Source of the DNA: an uncultured Actinomycetes bacterium | Lineage (GTDB): Bacteria; Actinomycetota; CADDZG01; WHSQ01 | Assembly (NCBI GenBank): GCA_937863385.1 | Contig: CALMBW010000018.1 | Span: 1 to 64,000 of the forward strand | DNA: 64,000 nucleotides | Reading direction: 5' to 3' | Shown here: piece after piece, positions 53,670-64,000 of the stretch | Numbering within the stretch: the first letter of the stretch is position 1 | Layout: each line of letters begins with the position of its first letter | Notes under the pieces: generated by a model | What the model saw: the letters and a program-made list of their open reading frames with translations, nothing else | The model's database searches: none | Told to the model about the DNA's origin: nothing | Translations under genes and position numbers: made by a program

Positions 53670-54599
53670 ATGAGCGAGGAAACCAGAACTAGCACTCGGC
53701 TAGACCGGGCTATAGCAACCTTCACGTTGCTTGCCCTGATCGGCGCGTCAGCATCGATGCTCCTAGGTCTCACCACAGCAGGAGCCCAAGAACCTCCCCC
53801 TCCCACCGTGACGGTTACCGACCCCCTGGAAGGCGAAACCACCTTCTCACCGGCAGTGATCGATGTGCCCCTCAACGGTCAGCTGGAGTTCGTGCTCGCC
53901 AGCGGGGACGCCAGTGGCACCTCGATCGATTCAACCGATCCTCTGTTCGCGTTCGACGGGTTCTGTTTCTTATCGGCTGCCAACCCGTCCTGCACCGTGA
54001 CGGTTATCGACCAGAACGCCGCGGGCCAGGTCGAATACGCCGAAACGGCCGACACCAGCACGACCGGCCTCATCAACGTGACGACCGGAACCCCAAGCCC
54101 CTCCTCAAGCGCCAGCCCCAGCACCTCGTCCAGTCCCAGCGCTTCTCCCTCCGCGTCCCCGACGGGGTCACCAACCGCTTCTCCCTCTCCTTCCACATCG
54201 CCCACGGCAGACCCAAGCACATCACCGACGGCTTCACCGAGCGCGAGCCCTTCACCCAGCACTTCCCCTTCCCCGCAGCCAACGGTCCACCCTCGGACAT
54301 TGACCATCGAACTACGTGGCGCTCTGATCGTCAGCGGGACGCTGTCCTCTGATGATCCGGGCTGCTACAGGGGAGCTCCGGTGGACGTGCAGAAGCGGGT
54401 GGTGAAGAAACGCAACGGCAAGAAGGTCGTGCGGTGGAAGAAGATCACCCGCGACATCACAAACTTCGATGGCGAGTACGAAGCAGCTATCGCGCCCAAG
54501 AAGGGCCGCTACCGAACGCGGTCTATCAGATACTCGGATGACACCGGCATGCAGATCTGTGCGTTCGTCGTGTCCGCGGTGCGGCGCTACAGACCTTAG
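53670..54599 (+). CDS. Secreted protein with Ser/Pro-rich repeat linker
   Basis: A 309-residue exported protein: signal helix (about 17-37), an N-terminal domain with VPLNGQLEFVLASG, a ~60-residue linker of SPS/SPT/SAS repeats (about 140-205), and a C-terminal basic beta-domain (TIELRGALIVSGTL, KKGRYRTRSIRYSDD) ending in two cysteines region (MQICAF). The gene has a close paralogue downstream with the same layout, so they likely arose by duplication. It may be a cell-wall-anchored or surface protein. Confidence 0.75.
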   Translation: MSEETRTSTRLDRAIATFTLLALIGASASMLLGLTTAGAQEPPPPTVTVTDPLEGETTFSPAVIDVPLNGQLEFVLASGDASGTSIDSTDPLFAFDGFCFLSAANPSCTVTVIDQNAAGQVEYAETADTSTTGLINVTTGTPSPSSSASPSTSSSPSASPSASPTGSPTASPSPSTSPTADPSTSPTASPSASPSPSTSPSPQPTVHPRTLTIELRGALIVSGTLSSDDPGCYRGAPVDVQKRVVKKRNGKKVVRWKKITRDITNFDGEYEAAIAPKKGRYRTRSIRYSDDTGMQICAFVVSAVRRYRP

Positions 54600-54747
54600 A
54601 CCCCGGCGAAAAGATCCACCTCAGGTAAGGCGTGCTTCGTCCGATTTCGGTAGGTAATCGCCGGGTCTGTCCTGATGGTCTTGACCGCGAACCTCTGATA
54701 GACCTCATAGTCACTTAGACCTATCCCTTACTAACCGTGGAGAGTTG

Positions 54748-55734
54748 ATGCCTCGAGCCAGGGCGACAGATGGCAGGTTCGACCGCACCATAGCGGTCTT
54801 CCTGCTTGTAGCCATGGCGTCGGCTATCACCTACATGTTCTTCTGGTGGGCGCCCTCCGCTCGTTCCGGGCCGGCAGCAACCAAGACGATCACCATCTCC
54901 AGCTTGCTCGCCCTGAGCCCACTCACGGAAACCATGACCACTGCCGATACGCTAAACGTCACCAACGAACATCCGCTGATAGCCCAAACGCTGGTTCTGA
55001 CCCCTGCGAACGGTGGGTCGTCCACGGATGTGTCGGTTCCAGCTGCTCAAACCACTACTGCGCCTGCGCTATCGGCGGGAACGTACTCCTACGCCTGCAA
55101 CCCCGCCTGCACCAACGGGCCCGGCTCCCTCACCGTTACGGCACTACAAACCGCGTCTCCAACCCCCAGCCCGAGCCCGACCGAAGAATGTCCCCTCCCG
55201 GTTCCCCTGCCCGCTGTTTGCGAGGAGCCGCCACCCTCATCACCCTCTGCCTCGCCAAGCGCCACCGCTTCACCGAGTGCCTCGGCGTCTCCCAGCGCGT
55301 CTCCCACCGCTTCGGCGAGTCCCACGGCGAGTCCCAGTCCTTCTGCCTCACCTTCTACATCTCCCTCCCCATCTCCATCGACAAGTCCCTCTACCTCTCC
55401 GACGCCGAGCCCTAGTCCAACGATCGGACCTCCCACAGATCGCCGCGTGACGCTCAATCTGCGTAGGCACCTGAAGGCTCGAGGCAAGATCACGGCCGAG
55501 CAGGCCGCCTCCACGGATTGCTATTCCAACGTGACGGTGGATATCCAGCGAAAGACCAAGAGCGGATGGAGAACCATCAAGTTCGCTACGACGAACGACG
55601 AAGGGTCGTACAAGACCAAGCTGAAGGATCGCAAAGGCAAGTACCGGGCGCTCGTAAACGAGCTAGTCGTCAATGACGTCCTCGTCTGCTCTAGTGACGT
55701 TTCACCTATCAGCCGCCACAGACACCGCAAGTAA
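54748..55734 (+). CDS. Secreted Ser/Pro-rich protein, paralogue of the upstream gene
   Basis: A 328-residue protein sharing layout with the gene ending at 54599: signal helix (about 15-36), N-terminal domain with a CNPACTNGPG motif, a long SPS/TPS/SAS linker (about 140-230), and a C-terminal domain (VTLNLRRHLKARGKI, KGKYRALVNEL). Start at 54748 rather than the TTG three bases before. Convergent with the 5S gene; a shared hairpin lies between. Confidence 0.75.
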   Translation: MPRARATDGRFDRTIAVFLLVAMASAITYMFFWWAPSARSGPAATKTITISSLLALSPLTETMTTADTLNVTNEHPLIAQTLVLTPANGGSSTDVSVPAAQTTTAPALSAGTYSYACNPACTNGPGSLTVTALQTASPTPSPSPTEECPLPVPLPAVCEEPPPSSPSASPSATASPSASASPSASPTASASPTASPSPSASPSTSPSPSPSTSPSTSPTPSPSPTIGPPTDRRVTLNLRRHLKARGKITAEQAASTDCYSNVTVDIQRKTKSGWRTIKFATTNDEGSYKTKLKDRKGKYRALVNELVVNDVLVCSSDVSPISRHRHRK

Positions 55735-56319: not shown

Positions 56320-57043
56320 CACATCTGTTACTCCCGATCCGCATCGATCGAGGGCCAAGTCGTTTCTGTTCCGCTTGGCTCCCCATGTCGCCATGGGGGT
56401 CGGACCATATCTTCACGAATCTGGTGGATCCGTGTCTGGCGTATGGCCTCTGAGGATTCTGGTTGACCAATCTTCTCTTCTATAGCGGCCACCTCCGTTC
56501 ATCTGAGTAGCCTCTTGAAGCAAGCGGTGGAATCCGTCCTCTTCGAGGTGGTCACCCCGCTCCATTGCTCTCACGATCGCTGCGAAAGTCTCAAACTCGC
56601 GCTGCTTCTCGCTGAGAAGGGGGTGCTGTTCAAAGAAGGGAATCACTCTCTCGAGAAGATCCTTTCGCTTCCTTGCTACGTAAACCAGAGACTTGTCTCT
56701 CCCCCCTGCTCGTCCGTTCGCCTGGATGCGTCCGCATCCAAGTTGCCGTAGGAGAAGGCAAAGGGTCGAAGATCTCTCCGGATTCTGACTTACGTGGAAC
56801 TCTGGTACGAGTTGCCACTTCAATCTCGTAGAAGGGTTGCGTTGGATCGCCACGTGAAAGCTGCCTTCCCCGTCGACGTATCCCGCTAGATAATCATCCA
56901 GTCTTTCCTGCTGATCGTCCGCACCGGTCAGATTTTCACTGCTCATGTGCTCAGTCTGACAACGGCCTGAGACATAAACGAGTACTGCCGGATGCTCGGA
57001 TGTTCCAGCATTTAGCCAGATTTATAGACAGCGCGGTCATCTC
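56320..57043 (-). mobile_element. Group I intron in 23S after position 2604, with LAGLIDADG ORF
   Basis: The 724-base intron interrupts exon sequence GACAGU|UCGGUC. Its 5' exon pairs with GCUGUC inside the intron, giving P1 with a U.G pair at the splice site; the last base is G. The core has the P7 strands GGCCAU and AUGGUCC, a P9 hairpin with a GCGA loop and further 3' hairpins. An endonuclease gene fills most of the interior. It is a close sibling of the intron at 58375-59070. Confidence 0.93.
56413..56946 (-). CDS. LAGLIDADG homing endonuclease in 23S intron (position 2604)
   Basis: A 177-residue single-motif LAGLIDADG protein, likely a homodimer. The motif is LAGYVDGEGSFHVAI at about 18-32, and the C-terminal region has ERVIPFFEQHPLLSEKQREF, typical of this group. 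The reading frame is inside the intron and its end runs through the ribozyme core (the 5' strand of P7 is coding; the stop lies just before the P7 3' strand). Its first residues, MSSEN and GADDQQER, are nearly the same as those of the endonuclease at 58397, so the two are recent relatives. Confidence 0.92.
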   Translation of the reverse strand: MSSENLTGADDQQERLDDYLAGYVDGEGSFHVAIQRNPSTRLKWQLVPEFHVSQNPERSSTLCLLLRQLGCGRIQANGRAGGRDKSLVYVARKRKDLLERVIPFFEQHPLLSEKQREFETFAAIVRAMERGDHLEEDGFHRLLQEATQMNGGGRYRREDWSTRILRGHTPDTDPPDS

Positions 57044-57062
57044 ACTGTCTCACGACGTTCTA

Positions 57063-57114
<52 letters not shown>

Positions 57115-57147
57115 GCTCCGGCCCCAGGATGCGACGAGCCGACATCG

Positions 57148-57451
57148 CACGATGTCCCACTGTTTCCAGTGGCGCAGACTATGTCTTCACCCTGCCTGAT
57201 CAGAGGCGAGGGGTCGGCGTGTTGTGGCGTCTATAGATTTGACCTGTCGGTCAGAGATCGCCACCGGATCTGAAAGATCTCAGTCGTTACGGGGTCACGC
57301 ACTGGTCACTGCTACTGATCTACCGTCTGTGCGGACTTCCCACGGCGTTGCCTTTCTGTACGTCCTGGGTGGATCTTTGCGCGTACAGCGAAGGGTTCGC
57401 CGTTATAAGCCGATGCTGTGAACAACGTTTCCGTTGCTCCACCCCAAATTG
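57148..57451 (-). mobile_element. Group I intron in 23S after position 2500, no ORF
   Basis: A 304-base intron inserted in GGCACCU|CGAUGUC. The 5' exon CACCU pairs with GGGUG in the intron (U.G at the splice site) and the last base is G. It contains AAGACATAGTCTG, a canonical P7 3' strand, and a P9 hairpin CCACTG/CAGTGG with GAAA loop. No coding frame of note. It seems unrelated in detail to the other three, so it was probably acquired separately. Confidence 0.88.
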
Positions 57452-57972
57452 AGGTGCCAAACCCTGCCGTCGATATGGACTCTTGGGCAGGATCAGCCTG
57501 TTATCCCTAGGGTACCTTTTAGCCGATGAGCGACGGCCCTACCACGAGGTGCCGCCGGATCACTAACTCCTACTTTCGTACCTGCTTGACTTGTGGGTCT
57601 CGCAGTCAAGCTCCCTTGTGCGTTTGCACTCAACTCCCGATGGCCGACCGGGATGAGGGAACCTTTGAACACCTCCGTTACATTTTAGGAGGTCACCGCC
57701 CCAGTGAAACTACCCACCTGACACTGTCCCCGAACCGGATAACGGTCCCGGGTTAGAAGTTCAGAACAAGCAGGGCGGTATTTCAAGGGTGGCTCCACCG
57801 ACACCGGAGTGCCAGCTTCAAAGCCTCCCGCCTATCCTACGCAACCTGCCCCAAACTCCAATATCAAGCTGTAGTAAAGGTCCTAGGGTCTTTCCGTCCT
57901 TCTGCGGGAAACGAGCATCTTTACTCGTACTGCAATTTCGCCGAGTCTCTGGTTGAGACAGTGCCCAAGTCG

Positions 57973-58019
<47 letters not shown>

Positions 58020-58354
58020 GAAGCTGTTACTTCCAGACTCGCTGTGCACTGATGAGTCTGGCGGGCCGGTCATTTCTGCCGACCTCCTCACGTCGCCGTG
58101 AGGATCGGACCATCTCTTCATCTCAAGTCGCTGATCGAGATGGCTGGCGTATGGTCTCTGAGGATCCCGCCGAAGCGGTTTCCTGCGGGTTTTCCGGCGT
58201 GGTCAACGATCAACCACCCGCCGTCGGATTGTTACTGCCTCAAAGAGGCGAGTACCGAACGGATACACCGGGTTTTCCTGCATACAGCCAGCTGCACTCA
58301 CCAGTGTCACCACCGGGAGGGGCAGCACCCCAAGCTGCACACCTGGGGATTCCT
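58020..58354 (-). mobile_element. Group I intron in 23S after position 1931, no ORF
   Basis: A 335-base intron in CUAAGGU|AGCGAAAU. Core elements include the P7 pair GACCAU/AUGGUC, a P8 hairpin CATCTC/GAGATG, and a P9 stem CCTCACG/CGTGAGG with GCGA loop, close to those of the two ORF-containing introns. GGU with the next two intron bases can pair with CUGCC. The exact 3' end is not fixed: a cut after U1931 leaves a terminal C on the intron, a cut after G1933 leaves a terminal G. Confidence 0.88.
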
Positions 58355-58374
58355 ACCTTAGGACGGTTATAGTT
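58355..58374 (-). other. 20-nt 23S exon between two group I introns
   Basis: The bases read AACTATAACCGTCCTAAGGT on the minus strand and correspond to 23S positions 1912-1931, which form the loop and 3' strand of helix 69 and the start of helix 71. Introns border it on both sides, so both must be excised for a working intersubunit bridge B2a. Confidence 0.9.
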
Positions 58375-59070
58375 CAGCACCGTCATCCCCGTATCGCTAC
58401 GGGGTCTGGACCATCTCTTCATCCACAAGCTTCAATTGTGGAGCTCTGCGTATGGCCTCTGAGGATTCCAAGAACCGAGATGGCTTCCTGTGATTCATGG
58501 TCTGCGCGATCTTTGCGATCCGAGTAAGACCCTCCACCGTTAGGTGAAGCCTCATCCTCATCATCTGTACAACCGTCGCAAACTTCTGAAACTCAGTTGC
58601 TTTTGCGGTCCGTAGTGGATTCGCCTCAAAGAACGGAATGATCACCGAATGTAGGTACGCCCGATTCCGGACGCTGTACCTATAGAGATGCTCACGATGA
58701 TTGTCGTAGCGGCGATTGACATACACATCACCGCAACCGAAGAACTGCTTCATCTCGTGGAGTACATCCACGCTCCGCGCTCCCTGAACGACCACAAAGT
58801 CCGGTTGAACCTGCCACCCGAGCTTGTAGGTCGTGTTCTTGAAGATCGGAACACTGAAGCAGCCTTCGCCGTCGACGAAGCCGACGATCCACTGCTCGAT
58901 ACTTGGTCTTTCCTGCTGATTGTCCGCACCGGGCGGATTTTCACTGCTCATGTCTTCAACCTAAAGAGAAGGTGTGACATGAACGAGTACCGCCGGATAC
59001 TCGGAGTTTCCAGCAAATAGCAGAGTTGTTGTCTAGACGATCACTCGTCTAGGGCGGCAACTATTACCTT
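58375..59070 (-). mobile_element. Group I intron in 23S after position 1911, with LAGLIDADG ORF
   Basis: A 696-base intron in GGCGGCGGU|AACUAUAACC. P1 is formed by exon GGCGGU with intron GCCGCC (U.G at the splice site) and the last base is G. The core has P7 (GGCCAU/AUGGUCC), P8 (CCACAA/TTGTGG) and a P9 stem CCCCGTA/TACGGGG with a GCGA loop. It encodes an endonuclease related to that of the 2604 intron. Confidence 0.93.
58397..58951 (-). CDS. LAGLIDADG homing endonuclease in 23S intron (position 1911)
   Basis: A 184-residue single-motif homing endonuclease. The motif is IVGFVDGEGCFSVPI (about 21-35), followed by YRYSVRNRAYLHSVIIPFF and a basic C-terminus. The ORF starts MSSENPPGADNQQER and ends in MVQTP, with the reading frame passing through the core of the intron including both P7 strands. 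It would be expected to cut an intron-less 23S gene near position 1911. Only ~20 bp downstream lies the site of the 1931 intron, so that intron may alter its target. Confidence 0.92.
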   Translation of the reverse strand: MSSENPPGADNQQERPSIEQWIVGFVDGEGCFSVPIFKNTTYKLGWQVQPDFVVVQGARSVDVLHEMKQFFGCGDVYVNRRYDNHREHLYRYSVRNRAYLHSVIIPFFEANPLRTAKATEFQKFATVVQMMRMRLHLTVEGLTRIAKIAQTMNHRKPSRFLESSEAIRRAPQLKLVDEEMVQTP

Positions 59071-59947
59071 ACCGCCGCCGTTTACCGGGGCTTAGGTTCA
59101 GAGCTTCGCCTTACGGCTAACCCTTCCCCGTAACCTTCCGGCACCGGGCAGGCGTCAGTGCGTATACGGCGCCTTACGGCTTAGCACGCACCTGTGTTTT
59201 TAGTAAACAGTCGCTAGGGCCTGGTTTCTGCGACCATAGTCAGCTTCGGGAGCAAGTCCCTACACCAACCATGGCGCCGCTTATCCCGAAGTTACGCGGC
59301 CAATTTGCCGAGTTCCTTAACCAGAGTTCACTCGATCGCCTCGGTATGCTCTACCTGTCCACCTGTGTCGGTTTGGGGTACGGGCACCACAGAAACTGGC
59401 TAGAGGCTTTTCTCGGGAGCATGGGCTCATCAGCTTCGGCTCAATCGCCTCGGCATCGTGTCTCAGGATTAACGATCCAACGGATTTGCCTATCGGATCT
59501 CCCTACGCACTTACCCCACGTCGACCAACGCGTGGGTCTGACTACCCTCCTCCGTCACCCCATTGCTACCCGCCACGTCTGGGTCGGTAGGCCCGAAGGC
59601 TTTCCTTAGCAAAACGTCTTGGGTTGGGCGCGTCTGTGGTGGTACTGGAATATCAACCAGTTGTCCATCGCCTACGCATCTCTGCCTCGGCTTAGGTCCC
59701 GACTTACCCTGGGCGGATTAACCTTCCCCAGGAACCCTTGGACATACGGCGTCGAAGTTTCTCGCTTCGATTTCGCTACTCATGCCGGCATTCGCACTTG
59801 TGCGCGCTCCACGGTTCCTTACAGTTCCGCTTCACAGCAGGCACAACGCTCCCCTACCGATCACACATAAATGTGCAATCCCGCAGCTTCGGTACTTCAC
59901 TTAGCCCCGCTACATTATCGGCGCGAAATCACTCGACCAGTGAGCTG

Positions 59948-59999
<52 letters not shown>

Positions 60000-60559
60000 A
60001 GCAACTTCACATCCTTTTCCACTTAGTGAAGATTTAGGGACCTTAGCTGGCGATCTGGGCTGTTTCCCTCTCGACTACGGAGCTTATCCCCCGCAGTCTC
60101 ACTGCCGTGCTCTGGAGTATGGGCATTCGGAGTTTGGCTGAGTTCGGTAACCTTGTTGGGCCCCTAGCCCATCCAGTGCTCTACCACCCATACTGAACGC
60201 ACGACGCTGCACCAAAATGCATTTCGGGGAGAACCAGCTATCACCGGGTTTGATTGGCCTTTCACCCCTATCCACAGGTCATCCCCCAGGTTTTCAACCC
60301 TGGTGGGTTCGGCCCTCCACGGAGTCTTACCTCCGCTTCAGCCTGCCCATGGATAGATCACCCGGCTTCGGGTCTAGGACATGCGACTGAACGCCTTATT
60401 AGGACTCGCTTTCGCTACGGCTTCGGCTCCACGCCTTAACCTCGCCACACATCGCTAACTCGCCGGCTCATTCTTCAAAAGGCACGCCGTCAGAGTGACA
60501 AGTCACTCCTTCGACTGTTTGTAAGCGCACGGTTTCAGGTGCTATTTCACTCCCCTCCC

Positions 60560-60590
<31 letters not shown>

Positions 60591-61125
60591 GGTTCACTAT
60601 CGGTCGATAGGTAGTAGTTAGCCTTACGGGGTGGGCCCCGCAGATTCACACGGAATTTCTCGGGCTCCGTGTTACTTGGGAACACCATCGGGAGATCAGT
60701 CGGCTTTCGCCTACAGGGCTATTACCTTCTGTGGCCTAACTTTCCAAGAAGTTCGGCTAACCGCTGATTTTGTAACTCCCTGCTCGGTCTTGCACCCGAA
60801 CAGATGGGTCCCACAACACCCCCTACGCAACGCTGCAAGGCTTTGACACGTAGAAGGTTTGGGCTGATCCCGTTTCGCTCGCCGCTACTCAGGGACTCGT
60901 TATTTACTTTCTCTTCCTCGGGTTACTTAGATGTTTCAATTCACCCGGTTCCCTCCACAGGCCCTATGTATTCAGACCTGGGTACCAGCGCATGACCGCT
61001 GGTGGGTTTCCCCATTCGGACATCCTCGGATCAAAGGTTGTTTGGCACCTCCCCGAGGCTTTTCGCAGCCTACCGCGTCCTTCGTCGGCTCCTATCGCCA
61101 AGGCATCCACCGTACGCTCTTAGTA

Positions 61126-61168
61126 GCTTGGTATCGATGCTCGTGCTCGCTATGGAGTTTCCAAGGTC
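61126..61168 (-). other. 5' strand of the 23S processing stem
   Basis: Pairs with 55994-56033 in three perfect blocks of 10, 14 and 7 base pairs. Its presence without a 16S part upstream shows that 23S is processed from its own precursor. Confidence 0.88.
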
Positions 61169-61215
61169 CATCTCGCTCGGATGACCGAGCTTTCCTTACT
61201 AACGACTTCCGAGGC

Positions 61216-61245
61216 AAAAAAAATCCGCCGGAACGTGGCCGGCGG
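61216..61245 (-). terminator. Intrinsic terminator between promoter and 23S gene
   Basis: On the minus strand, CCGCCGG pairs with CCGGCGG around a short loop, followed by A and eight T residues; this is a near-ideal rho-independent terminator. It lies about 90 bases downstream of the strong promoter at 61341-61369 and 85 bases before the mature 23S start. It would also end argH transcription. How 23S transcription passes it is unclear: antitermination or another promoter may exist. Confidence 0.85.
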
Positions 61246-61275
61246 GGTCACCTTCGAGCAAGACAAGTCTCGCCG

Positions 61276-61308
61276 CTAGGCTCGTACCCCTGTGGAGTTC
61301 GTTCGCAT
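61276..61308 (-). CDS. Possible 10-codon leader peptide
   Basis: A frame of ten codons (MRTNSTGVRA) and a stop begins at ATG 61308, behind a GGAGGAG ribosome-binding site six bases ahead. It sits between the promoter at 61341-61369 and the terminator at 61216-61245. The layout (promoter, short ORF, terminator) resembles a translation-controlled attenuator, but such a small frame may also occur by chance. Confidence 0.35.
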   Translation of the reverse strand: MRTNSTGVRA

Positions 61309-61340
61309 GGAGAGCTCCTCCGTGAGAGAACAACCCGCCA

Positions 61341-61369
61341 ATAATACGGACGCCCGGGTATCCAGTCAA
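61341..61369 (-). promoter_or_regulatory. Strong sigma70-type promoter for the 23S-5S unit
   Basis: On the minus strand, TTGACT (61369-61364) and TATTAT (61346-61341) are separated by 17 bases. Both boxes are near consensus. It lies between argH and 23S and is the best candidate for the rRNA promoter. The rest of 61370-61538 shows no further gene. Confidence 0.75.
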
Positions 61370-61538
61370 ACCAGTTGCCGAATCACCCACGCCCGTCCGG
61401 GCCATCGCAGACACTACATCAAACCCGCGGCTTACGTAGCCCCCCAAGGGCGGCCCGAAGTCCACCCTTTTGTCTCCTGCAGATCTACTTGCTCAGATCT
61501 TTATACGAACGATCAGAGCCTAGCCCTGCTCTGGCTCG

Positions 61539-62921
61539 CTAGAGAGCAGCGCGGAGCTTCTCGAGTTGCTCACGCACCCGGTCCGGCGCGGTACCTCCAG
61601 AGGAGTCGCGCGCCGCCATCGAGGCGCTAGCGTCATCGAGGGCTCGAACCTCGGTAGATAGTTCGGGATGGATGTCGGCGAGTAGATCGTCGGTGGCAGC
61701 AGATAGAGGAAGGTTGCGCTCTTCCAAGGCCGCCACGAGTCTTCCGGTAGCCGTGTGAGCGGTGCGGAACGGCACGCCTTTGCGTACGAGCCATTCCGCT
61801 ACGTCGGTAGCCCAGCTGCCGGCCGACGCGGCGGCGAGCGCCATGGTGTCGCGGTCGAAGGTGAGTTCTTGTACGCATCGGGTTGCGGCGGCCAGAGCGT
61901 CGTCACAACGATCCGCAGCTGCGAAGACGATCTGCTTGTCTTCTTGAAGGTCTCGGTCATAGGCCAGAGGAAGGCCTTTCAGCAGAACCAGCATCGACAT
62001 CAGGTCCCCGATCGCCGGGGCGCTGCGGCCTCGTAGTAGCTCGGCCATGTCCGGGTTCCTCTTCTGCGGCATCATGCTCGACCCGGTGGACCACCCGTCG
62101 CTGAACCTAGCGAACCCGAACTCAGAAGAGGTCCACAAGACCATCTCCTCTGCGAGGCGCGACAGGTGCACCCCGCACATCGCACACGCATAGATGAGGT
62201 CCGCCACGAAGTCTCTATCGGAAACGGCATCCATCGCGTTGTCGAAGGTTGACGCGAACCCCAGTTCCTCGGCAGGGACGGAGGGGTCGAGGTTCAACGT
62301 GTTGCCCGCAAGTGCGCCGGCCCCCAAGGTGCTCACGTCTGCGGCTGCCCCTGCCGCCTGGAACCTGATCACGTCTCGCTGGAGAGCAAAGCCATGAGCA
62401 CAGAGGTGGAAGGCCAAAGACACGGGCTGCGCTCGCTGCAGGTGCGTGTATCCCGGCATTACGGAATCCAGATGGTTGTCGGCGACGTCGCAGAGTGCTT
62501 CGACAAGAGTTCGCGCCGATCCGACCAGTCGGCGGGCTCGCTCTTTGCACCAGAGGCGCAGATCCGTGGCAACGAGGTCGTTGCGACTCCGGCCTGCGTG
62601 GATGCGTGCCCCCGTTTCTCCGAGTTGATCGGTCAGGAAGCGCTCCACGAAACTATGGACGTCTTCGTCCCCTTCAGGGGAGACGACACCGAGATGGAAT
62701 TGAGACAGTAGGGCCTGGCATACGTCATCGATCGCCCATAGCGCTTCTTCTTCCAGAAGCCCGGCCGCCACCAACGCCCTCGCGTGGGCGCGGGTGCTGG
62801 CCACGTCGCTGTCGAGGAGCCTGATATCTATCCCGATGGACGCGCTCTGACGCATCATCTCGGGATCCGGTCCGGACGAGAAGCGCCCGCCCCACAGCAT
62901 CTCGCCGCCTTGCTCTGTCAT
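61539..62921 (-). CDS. argH: Argininosuccinate lyase
   Basis: A 460-residue enzyme that releases arginine and fumarate from argininosuccinate. It shows LWGGRFSSGPDPEM, GYTHLQRAQPVSLAFH, and the fumarase-superfamily signature GSSMMPQKRNPD. Length is normal. It follows argG by nine bases and they form the last two steps of arginine synthesis. Confidence 0.96.
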   Translation of the reverse strand: MTEQGGEMLWGGRFSSGPDPEMMRQSASIGIDIRLLDSDVASTRAHARALVAAGLLEEEALWAIDDVCQALLSQFHLGVVSPEGDEDVHSFVERFLTDQLGETGARIHAGRSRNDLVATDLRLWCKERARRLVGSARTLVEALCDVADNHLDSVMPGYTHLQRAQPVSLAFHLCAHGFALQRDVIRFQAAGAAADVSTLGAGALAGNTLNLDPSVPAEELGFASTFDNAMDAVSDRDFVADLIYACAMCGVHLSRLAEEMVLWTSSEFGFARFSDGWSTGSSMMPQKRNPDMAELLRGRSAPAIGDLMSMLVLLKGLPLAYDRDLQEDKQIVFAAADRCDDALAAATRCVQELTFDRDTMALAAASAGSWATDVAEWLVRKGVPFRTAHTATGRLVAALEERNLPLSAATDDLLADIHPELSTEVRALDDASASMAARDSSGGTAPDRVREQLEKLRAAL

Positions 62922-62930
62922 GTGTCCAAA

Positions 62931-64000
62931 CTAGCGCCGTCTGCGCGCCTTCGCCCACTGAGTTGCGGGCATGCCCCACAACTTGATGAAGCCGGCGGCA
63001 TCGCTGTGGTCGAACTGATCGCCATCGTCGTACGTGGCAAGTCCCCTGTCGTAGAGACCTGTGGCCGACCTGCGACCGACGGGCAGGCAGCCGCCGGCGG
63101 TGAAGCGCAGACGGACCTCGCCGGTGACATAGTCCTGAGTGGAGGCGGCGAAAGCATCGAAAGCTTCACGGAGCGGCGAGAACCACAGCCCTTCGTAAAC
63201 GAGCTCGGACCACTTCGCATCGATGGCGCGCTTCTCGCGTGCAACCGACCTCTCGAGTGTGAGGTCCTCAAGATCTCTGTGCGCATCGATCAACGCCAAG
63301 GCCGCAGGTGCCTCGTAGATCTCTCTTGATTTGATACCAACCAGCCGGTCTTCGACCAGATCGACCCTCCCGTACCCGTAAGACCCCGCGATCTTGCCGA
63401 GCACGGCGATCACCTGGATCGGTGTCAGCGCCTCTCCATCGATGCCGGACGGCACGCCAGCTTCGAAACTGACCACGACATCGCGGTATCCGTCGGCTGT
63501 TTTCAGGTCGGTAAGCTCGTAGATGTCGTCGGGTGGACTCTCCCAAGGATCTTCGAGGATCCCGCACTCGATGCTGCGGCCCCAAAGGTTCTCGTCGATC
63601 GAGTAAGGCGATGATCTCGTCGTCGTCACCGGCAGAGAGCGCTCCTCCGCGTAGGCGATCGTCTGCTCGCGACTCATCCCCCAGTCACGCACCGGCGCGA
63701 GCACTTCTAGATCCGGAGCAAGCGCCTTCAACGACACTTCGAACCGAACCTGGTCGTTGCCCTTGCCGGTGCAGCCATGGGCAACCGCGTCCGCGCCGGT
63801 CTCTTCAGCGACCGCGACGAGGATCTCGGAGATCAGGGGCCGCGAGAGGGCCGAAACGAGTGGGTACCGTCCTTGGTACAACGCGTTCATCCTCAGGGCC
63901 GGCAGCGCGTACCTGTCGACGTAGTCTTGCTTCGCTTCGACGAGCCGAGCATCCACAGCCCCAAGGGGTGCAGCCCGATCCACTGCCGCCTGCAGGTCGC
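62931..64000 (-). CDS. argG: Argininosuccinate synthase, N-terminus beyond the window
   Basis: At least 356 residues, running off the window edge at 64000; the N-terminal nucleotide-binding loop is outside. The visible part contains AVAHGCTGKGNDQVRFE, SIDENLWGRSIECG and the C-terminal FTAGGCLPVGRRS region. It joins citrulline and aspartate using ATP. It is nine bases upstream of argH, so both share a transcript. Confidence 0.95.
   Translation of the reverse strand, partial: DLQAAVDRAAPLGAVDARLVEAKQDYVDRYALPALRMNALYQGRYPLVSALSRPLISEILVAVAEETGADAVAHGCTGKGNDQVRFEVSLKALAPDLEVLAPVRDWGMSREQTIAYAEERSLPVTTTRSSPYSIDENLWGRSIECGILEDPWESPPDDIYELTDLKTADGYRDVVVSFEAGVPSGIDGEALTPIQVIAVLGKIAGSYGYGRVDLVEDRLVGIKSREIYEAPAALALIDAHRDLEDLTLERSVAREKRAIDAKWSELVYEGLWFSPLREAFDAFAASTQDYVTGEVRLRFTAGGCLPVGRRSATGLYDRGLATYDDGDQFDHSDAAGFIKLWGMPATQWAKARRRR

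Follow-up and report, generated by a model that had tools for sequence, protein, structure and literature searches.

How does a 20-nt piece of 23S rRNA, taken from helix 69 (H69) and bordered by introns on both sides, find its place in the mature rRNA, and how did the two introns come to stand together? We addressed these questions for a 23S gene of an uncultured Actinomycetes bacterium, and used relatives of its introns to reconstruct how the pair may have arisen and may move.

Gene layout and intron boundaries

The window, by which we mean the whole analysed stretch of 64,000 nucleotides from contig CALMBW010000018.1, holds one 23S rRNA gene, on its minus strand, with the 5S gene behind it (Table 1). 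The H69 region has a single matching place in the whole genome (2.77 Mb, a 99.8% complete draft), i.e. one 23S copy. The 16S gene is also single and lies on another contig (G000 C21:124591-126118), unlinked from the 23S-5S pair. The 23S gene is immediately preceded by argH and argG, which share its strand (window 61133-63983), and two neighbouring secreted-looking proteins with Ser/Pro/Thr-rich repeats adjoin the rRNA genes at window 53670-55734.

Read 5' to 3', the minus strand runs ...AAACGGCGGCGGU / intron A / AACUAUAACCGUCCUAAGGU / intron B / AGCGAAAUUCC..., followed farther down by a third group I intron, C. The first-pass annotation had equated the short exon with 23S positions 1912-1931, including the H69 loop, and had placed introns on both sides; the spliced alignment returns exactly these coordinates, position mapping agrees on the loop (and adds the 3' strand of the helix), and two flanking group I introns are supported by splice-site pairing, by Rfam and by guide covariation in relatives. 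Against Rfam Intron_gpI, a family model that scores the conserved core P3-P8, intron B scores 51.2 bits (E 8e-12), above the gathering score of 50, while intron A reaches 25.2 bits (E 5e-4), under that score, because the inserted 184-codon ORF splits its core. The fold of intron B has z = -4.8 relative to shuffled sequences, and the first 157 nt of intron A are 87% identical to an ORF-less L1911 intron of 322 nt in G006, a genome of the same family.

Table 1. Features of the intron-bearing 23S rRNA gene, in window coordinates (23S positions in E. coli numbering)
Feature	Coordinates	Strand	Basis
23S rRNA, Rfam match; gene runs on past intron C to about 56030	57011..61133	-	RF02541, 2264.7 bits
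5' exon end GGCGGU (23S 1906-1911), H69 5' strand, P1 partner of intron A	59071..59076	-	sequence; 6/6 pairs with IGS GCCGCC including U1911.G at cut
Intron A, group I, after U1911 (L1911), 696 nt	58375..59070	-	spliced alignment; Rfam Intron_gpI
Internal guide (IGS) of intron A: AUAGUU (P10, with 3' exon 1912-1917) + GCCGCC (P1, with 5' exon 1906-1911)	59053..59064	-	pairing; in relatives, covaries with position 1909 of the exon
LAGLIDADG_1 homing endonuclease ORF in intron A, intact, 184 aa, L1931-type and not L1911-type	58397..58951	-	Pfam PF00961 E 1e-23; tree; AU test; diagnostic residues
GACGGU in intron A tail; can pair with exon 1919-1924 (ACCGUC, 58362-58367) as mimic of H69 5' strand	58379..58384	-	sequence, local fold
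20-nt exon, 23S 1912-1931: H69 loop and 3' strand plus 1925-1931	58355..58374	-	sequence; spliced alignment
Intron B, group I, 335 nt, lacking an ORF, after U1931 (L1931) with terminal C; with a 2-nt shift, after G1933	58020..58354	-	Rfam; fold; spliced alignment
IGS (CUGCC) of intron B: P1 with exon GGU + intron AG, P10 with 3' exon AG	58321..58325	-	pairing; fold
Intron C, group I, after U2604, 724 nt	56320..57043	-	junctions GACAGU/GAG...GUG/UCGGUC
LAGLIDADG_1 endonuclease ORF in intron C, 177 aa	56413..56946	-	PF00961 E 2e-17

The two parts of the intron A guide together match the joined exons GGCGGU-AACUAU over 12 bp (6+6), with U1911.G at the cut, and the last base of the intron is the expected G (omega-G). 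The arrangement is not due to chance, since the pairing in A extends over 6+6 bp and since the two-intron layout recurs in other genomes. Intron B likewise has a conserved U1931.G at the cut, and its P1 stem is recovered by an unconstrained fold. A conserved role for the pairing of the intron A tail with H69 was considered and rejected: the GACGGU is seen only in this genome and in G006, and is absent from other L1911 introns.

Origin of the endonuclease in intron A

The enzyme encoded in intron A is by sequence a match to I-PanMI of the PDB (E 4e-43). The tree places it in the L1931 clade (support 96/98), while five other L1911 endonucleases group elsewhere (100/98), and the AU test rejects a single clade of L1911 endonucleases (p-AU 0.016, or 0.005 when one long branch is left out). 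Its residue is of the L1931 kind at each of the 17 positions that tell the two classes apart. These include an insertion, NRR.DNHRE, in what is probably the DNA-binding region; the main L1931 class has this insertion, and all L1911 enzymes lack it. At the nucleotide level intron A is a mosaic, L1911-like at 1-160 and 601-696 and L1931-like at 161-600. The tree, the diagnostic residues and the mosaic together lead to the conclusion that the endonuclease gene entered intron A from an L1931 intron. An ORF-less L1911 intron like that of G006 likely represents the prior state, and the donor was perhaps the neighbouring intron B itself. Transfer of an endonuclease gene between adjacent introns, long proposed as a step in mobile-intron evolution, is thereby visible in sequence.

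From its relatives the enzyme would be expected to cut at 1931, although it may have been re-specialised. A genome-wide search found no intact 1931 target site in the host. The reading that we consider probable, and in which splicing in vivo, the target of the enzyme, co-mobility and protection are inferred parts, is that A and B are two separate self-splicing group I introns, with the exon between them rejoined, and form one mobile cassette. Each intron would excise itself through its own P1/P10 pairing, in either order, and the 20-nt exon would be ligated into the mature rRNA, rebuilding H69. Intron A, an L1911 ribozyme, would have taken over an L1931-type homing endonuclease, whose cut in 23S genes free of introns would fall at the 1931 site, 20 bp away from where A itself is inserted; repair from the donor would then copy A, exon and B together, only the 20-bp exon lying between the sites. 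Intron B, which has no endonuclease of its own, would shield the 1931 site of the host from the enzyme of A, and loss of B alone would be punished. A stricter form, to which we attach only tentative belief, makes the pair obligate: the L1931-specific enzyme in an L1911 intron would cut genes that lack B, and A, exon and B would both move and persist as one cassette.

Possible too, if on balance unlikely, is that the enzyme has been re-specialised to the 1911 site, which would leave A an ordinary self-mobile intron and B a mere neighbour. Such a change would presumably be favoured by selection for homing of A, and it would fit the integrity of the enzyme in a pair whose member B no longer carries one; against it, all 17 diagnostic positions, the NRR.DNHRE insertion included, are still L1931-like.

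Distribution of the introns among relatives

L1931 introns, recognised by their 3' junction, occur in 23 of 396 genomes of the phylum (about 6%). In nine of these 23 a second intron lies between 1911 and 1923, with a further one at 1951 in five of these nine cases. L1911 introns are rare, with nine stretches among 84,980 species genomes, and an L1931 intron is also present in at least 6 of the 12 known L1911 carriers (7 if a contig that is cut short is counted). One of the 12, the Afifella locus L034, has an ambiguous spliced alignment and was kept out of the IGS and endonuclease arguments; at locus L009 the intron is concealed inside the Rfam LSU match. The frequent co-occurrence of L1911 and L1931 fits the cassette, and could be explained more simply by hosts that are prone to introns. 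If the enzyme of A does cut the site of B, the two introns would be tied by mutual dependence, explaining why the rare L1911 intron is so often accompanied by L1931.

Several relatives are more crowded than the locus studied here. Between L1923 and L1931 introns, 8-nt 23S exons (CCUAAGGU, positions 1924-1931) were observed in G002, G003, G296 and G339, at loci L007 (1423-1430), L008 (2352-2359), L068 and L049. Three group I introns lie between 1911 and 1951 in L055, L009, L049, L016 and L052, leaving two exons of 8-20 nt each.

Order of splicing

The first-pass annotation had assigned the 5' part of the exon to the splicing of the upstream intron and the 3' part to P1 of the downstream one, and had taken this double use to suggest a constrained order of splicing. 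The assignments hold: AACUAU pairs with AUAGUU in P10 of intron A, and GGU pairs with GCC of the intron B guide. The constraint does not follow from them. Intron A uses 1912-1917 and intron B only 1929-1931, so that 11 nt separate the two pairings, which neither overlap nor compete; an overlap of P10 and P1 is thus ruled out as a cause of ordered splicing. That their shared need of one exon should nonetheless force one intron, whether A or B, to leave first is improbable. H69 is unable to form until A is out, both introns contact the exon, and the tail of A can hold exon positions 1919-1924, all of which would suit an enforced order; when the unspliced RNA is folded locally, however, the hairpin of that tail with 1919-1924 forms beside P1 of intron B, and this P1 requires just three exon bases. 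A forced order finds no support because the two intron-exon pairings do not block each other. Nor is 20 nt a lower limit, given the 8-nt exons at 1924-1931 in relatives, which likewise speak against a constraint imposed by exon length.

Ends of intron B

An AG is present at both ends of intron B, and the cut can therefore sit after U1931, A1932 or G1933. A cut after U1931 gives the exon of 20 nt, and the shifted cut one of 22 nt. The terminal base at the homologous place is C in place of the usual G; with the cut after G1933 it would be G. A terminal G is missing in five of 26 L1931 introns, namely those of this genome and G003 (both C) and of G082, G078 and G109 (A). All five start with AG, such that moving both cuts by two bases, to after G1933, would restore the G (hypergeometric p = 0.02 for the association of AG start and missing G, not corrected for relatedness). 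Either the splice sites have shifted by 2 nt or the terminal base is truly not G.

The C has a further possible consequence, that splicing of intron B is inefficient or fails altogether and that the ribosome uses a fragmented or intron-bearing 23S rRNA, as is reported for the Simkania intron, which sits at L1931. Everett 1999 (cited in PMC11270868) names in its title a group I intron of Chlamydiales 23S that stays unspliced, and the terminal C is shared by this genome and G003. We nevertheless regard failure to splice as quite improbable. The core and P1 of intron B are intact and stable, a second genus has the same terminal C, possibly by inheritance, the title of Raghavan 2007 reports a self-splicing Coxiella intron without omega-G, and the 2-nt shift would restore the G in any case.

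Fate of the exon

The H69 pair 1909:1921 is G:C here and C:G in most relatives, and the guides follow it. The IGS matches its own exon at this pair in all 11 L1911 introns compared (two with G1909, nine with C1909), and the guides of L1923 introns do the same in 6/6 cases (three and three). Guides that track the host pair are direct evidence that the introns read the exon as spliced. In all double-intron genomes the exon is at consensus apart from the compensated H69 pair; the exon-pattern matches among these were selected for exon identity, while this genome, G032, G089 and those with shorter exons came from other queries. In E. coli, changing any one of the loop positions 1912, 1917 and 1919 does severe harm and strongly inhibits translation (PMC1190176). 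Judging from these comparisons, the 20-nt exon is almost surely kept in the mature rRNA.

For removal of both introns as one unit with loss of the 20 nt, RT-PCR reports on Coxiella (a 34-nt exon) and on Twort orf142 (one of 23 nt) offer precedents (PMC10136302). As the predominant pathway this is extremely improbable here: no carrier departs from the exon consensus, compensated H69 pair included, changes in the loop are so harmful in E. coli, and the similarity between A and B is weak, 65 nt at 77%. Occasional skipping is likely to be a minor by-product, and may occur here by analogy with those systems.

Comparison with known systems

Group I introns separated by short exons are already known from this part of the 23S gene, and the locus adds a natural test case for the sharing of very short exons by several ribozymes at the site most critical to ribosome function. 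Among the known cases are the paired introns of Coxiella burnetii, between which, to our knowledge, no exchange of an endonuclease has been reported. According to secondary reports, this pair, L1917/L1951, consists of two group I introns around a very short exon in the same region (Raghavan 2007; Hicks 2011), and the title of the former indicates that one of them lacks omega-G; the sites (1917 and 1951), the exon length (34 nt) and the subgroups (IB2 and IA3) differ from the present case. A literature search on L1911 gave no match, which does not prove the site to be new; as far as the literature searched shows, there is no earlier description of the 1911 site, of exons of 8 nt or of the endonuclease exchange.

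Synechococcus sp. C9 has L1917, L1931 and L2593 introns with LAGLIDADG genes, the first two likewise around helix 69 and 14 nt apart, and its ORFs too extend through the ribozyme core (PMC1995217), but its first intron is at 1917 rather than 1911, and each endonuclease clusters with its own site. In CPR bacteria, rRNA insertions include LAGLIDADG_1 group I introns at 1917, 1931, 1952, 2593, 2604 and 2657; the text of that study does not list 1911 as a LAGLIDADG_1 site (PMC11270868). Introns 2 and 3 of phage Twort orf142 also enclose a short exon (23 nt), although in a protein gene, with two highly similar IA2 introns and an exon that is sometimes skipped (PMC10136302). For the proposed movement the nearest parallel is collaborative (trans) homing in T4-like phages, where an ORF-less intron is likewise moved by an endonuclease encoded elsewhere (PMC3984707); those enzymes are free-standing, whereas here the enzyme would reside in the neighbouring intron, 20 nt away.
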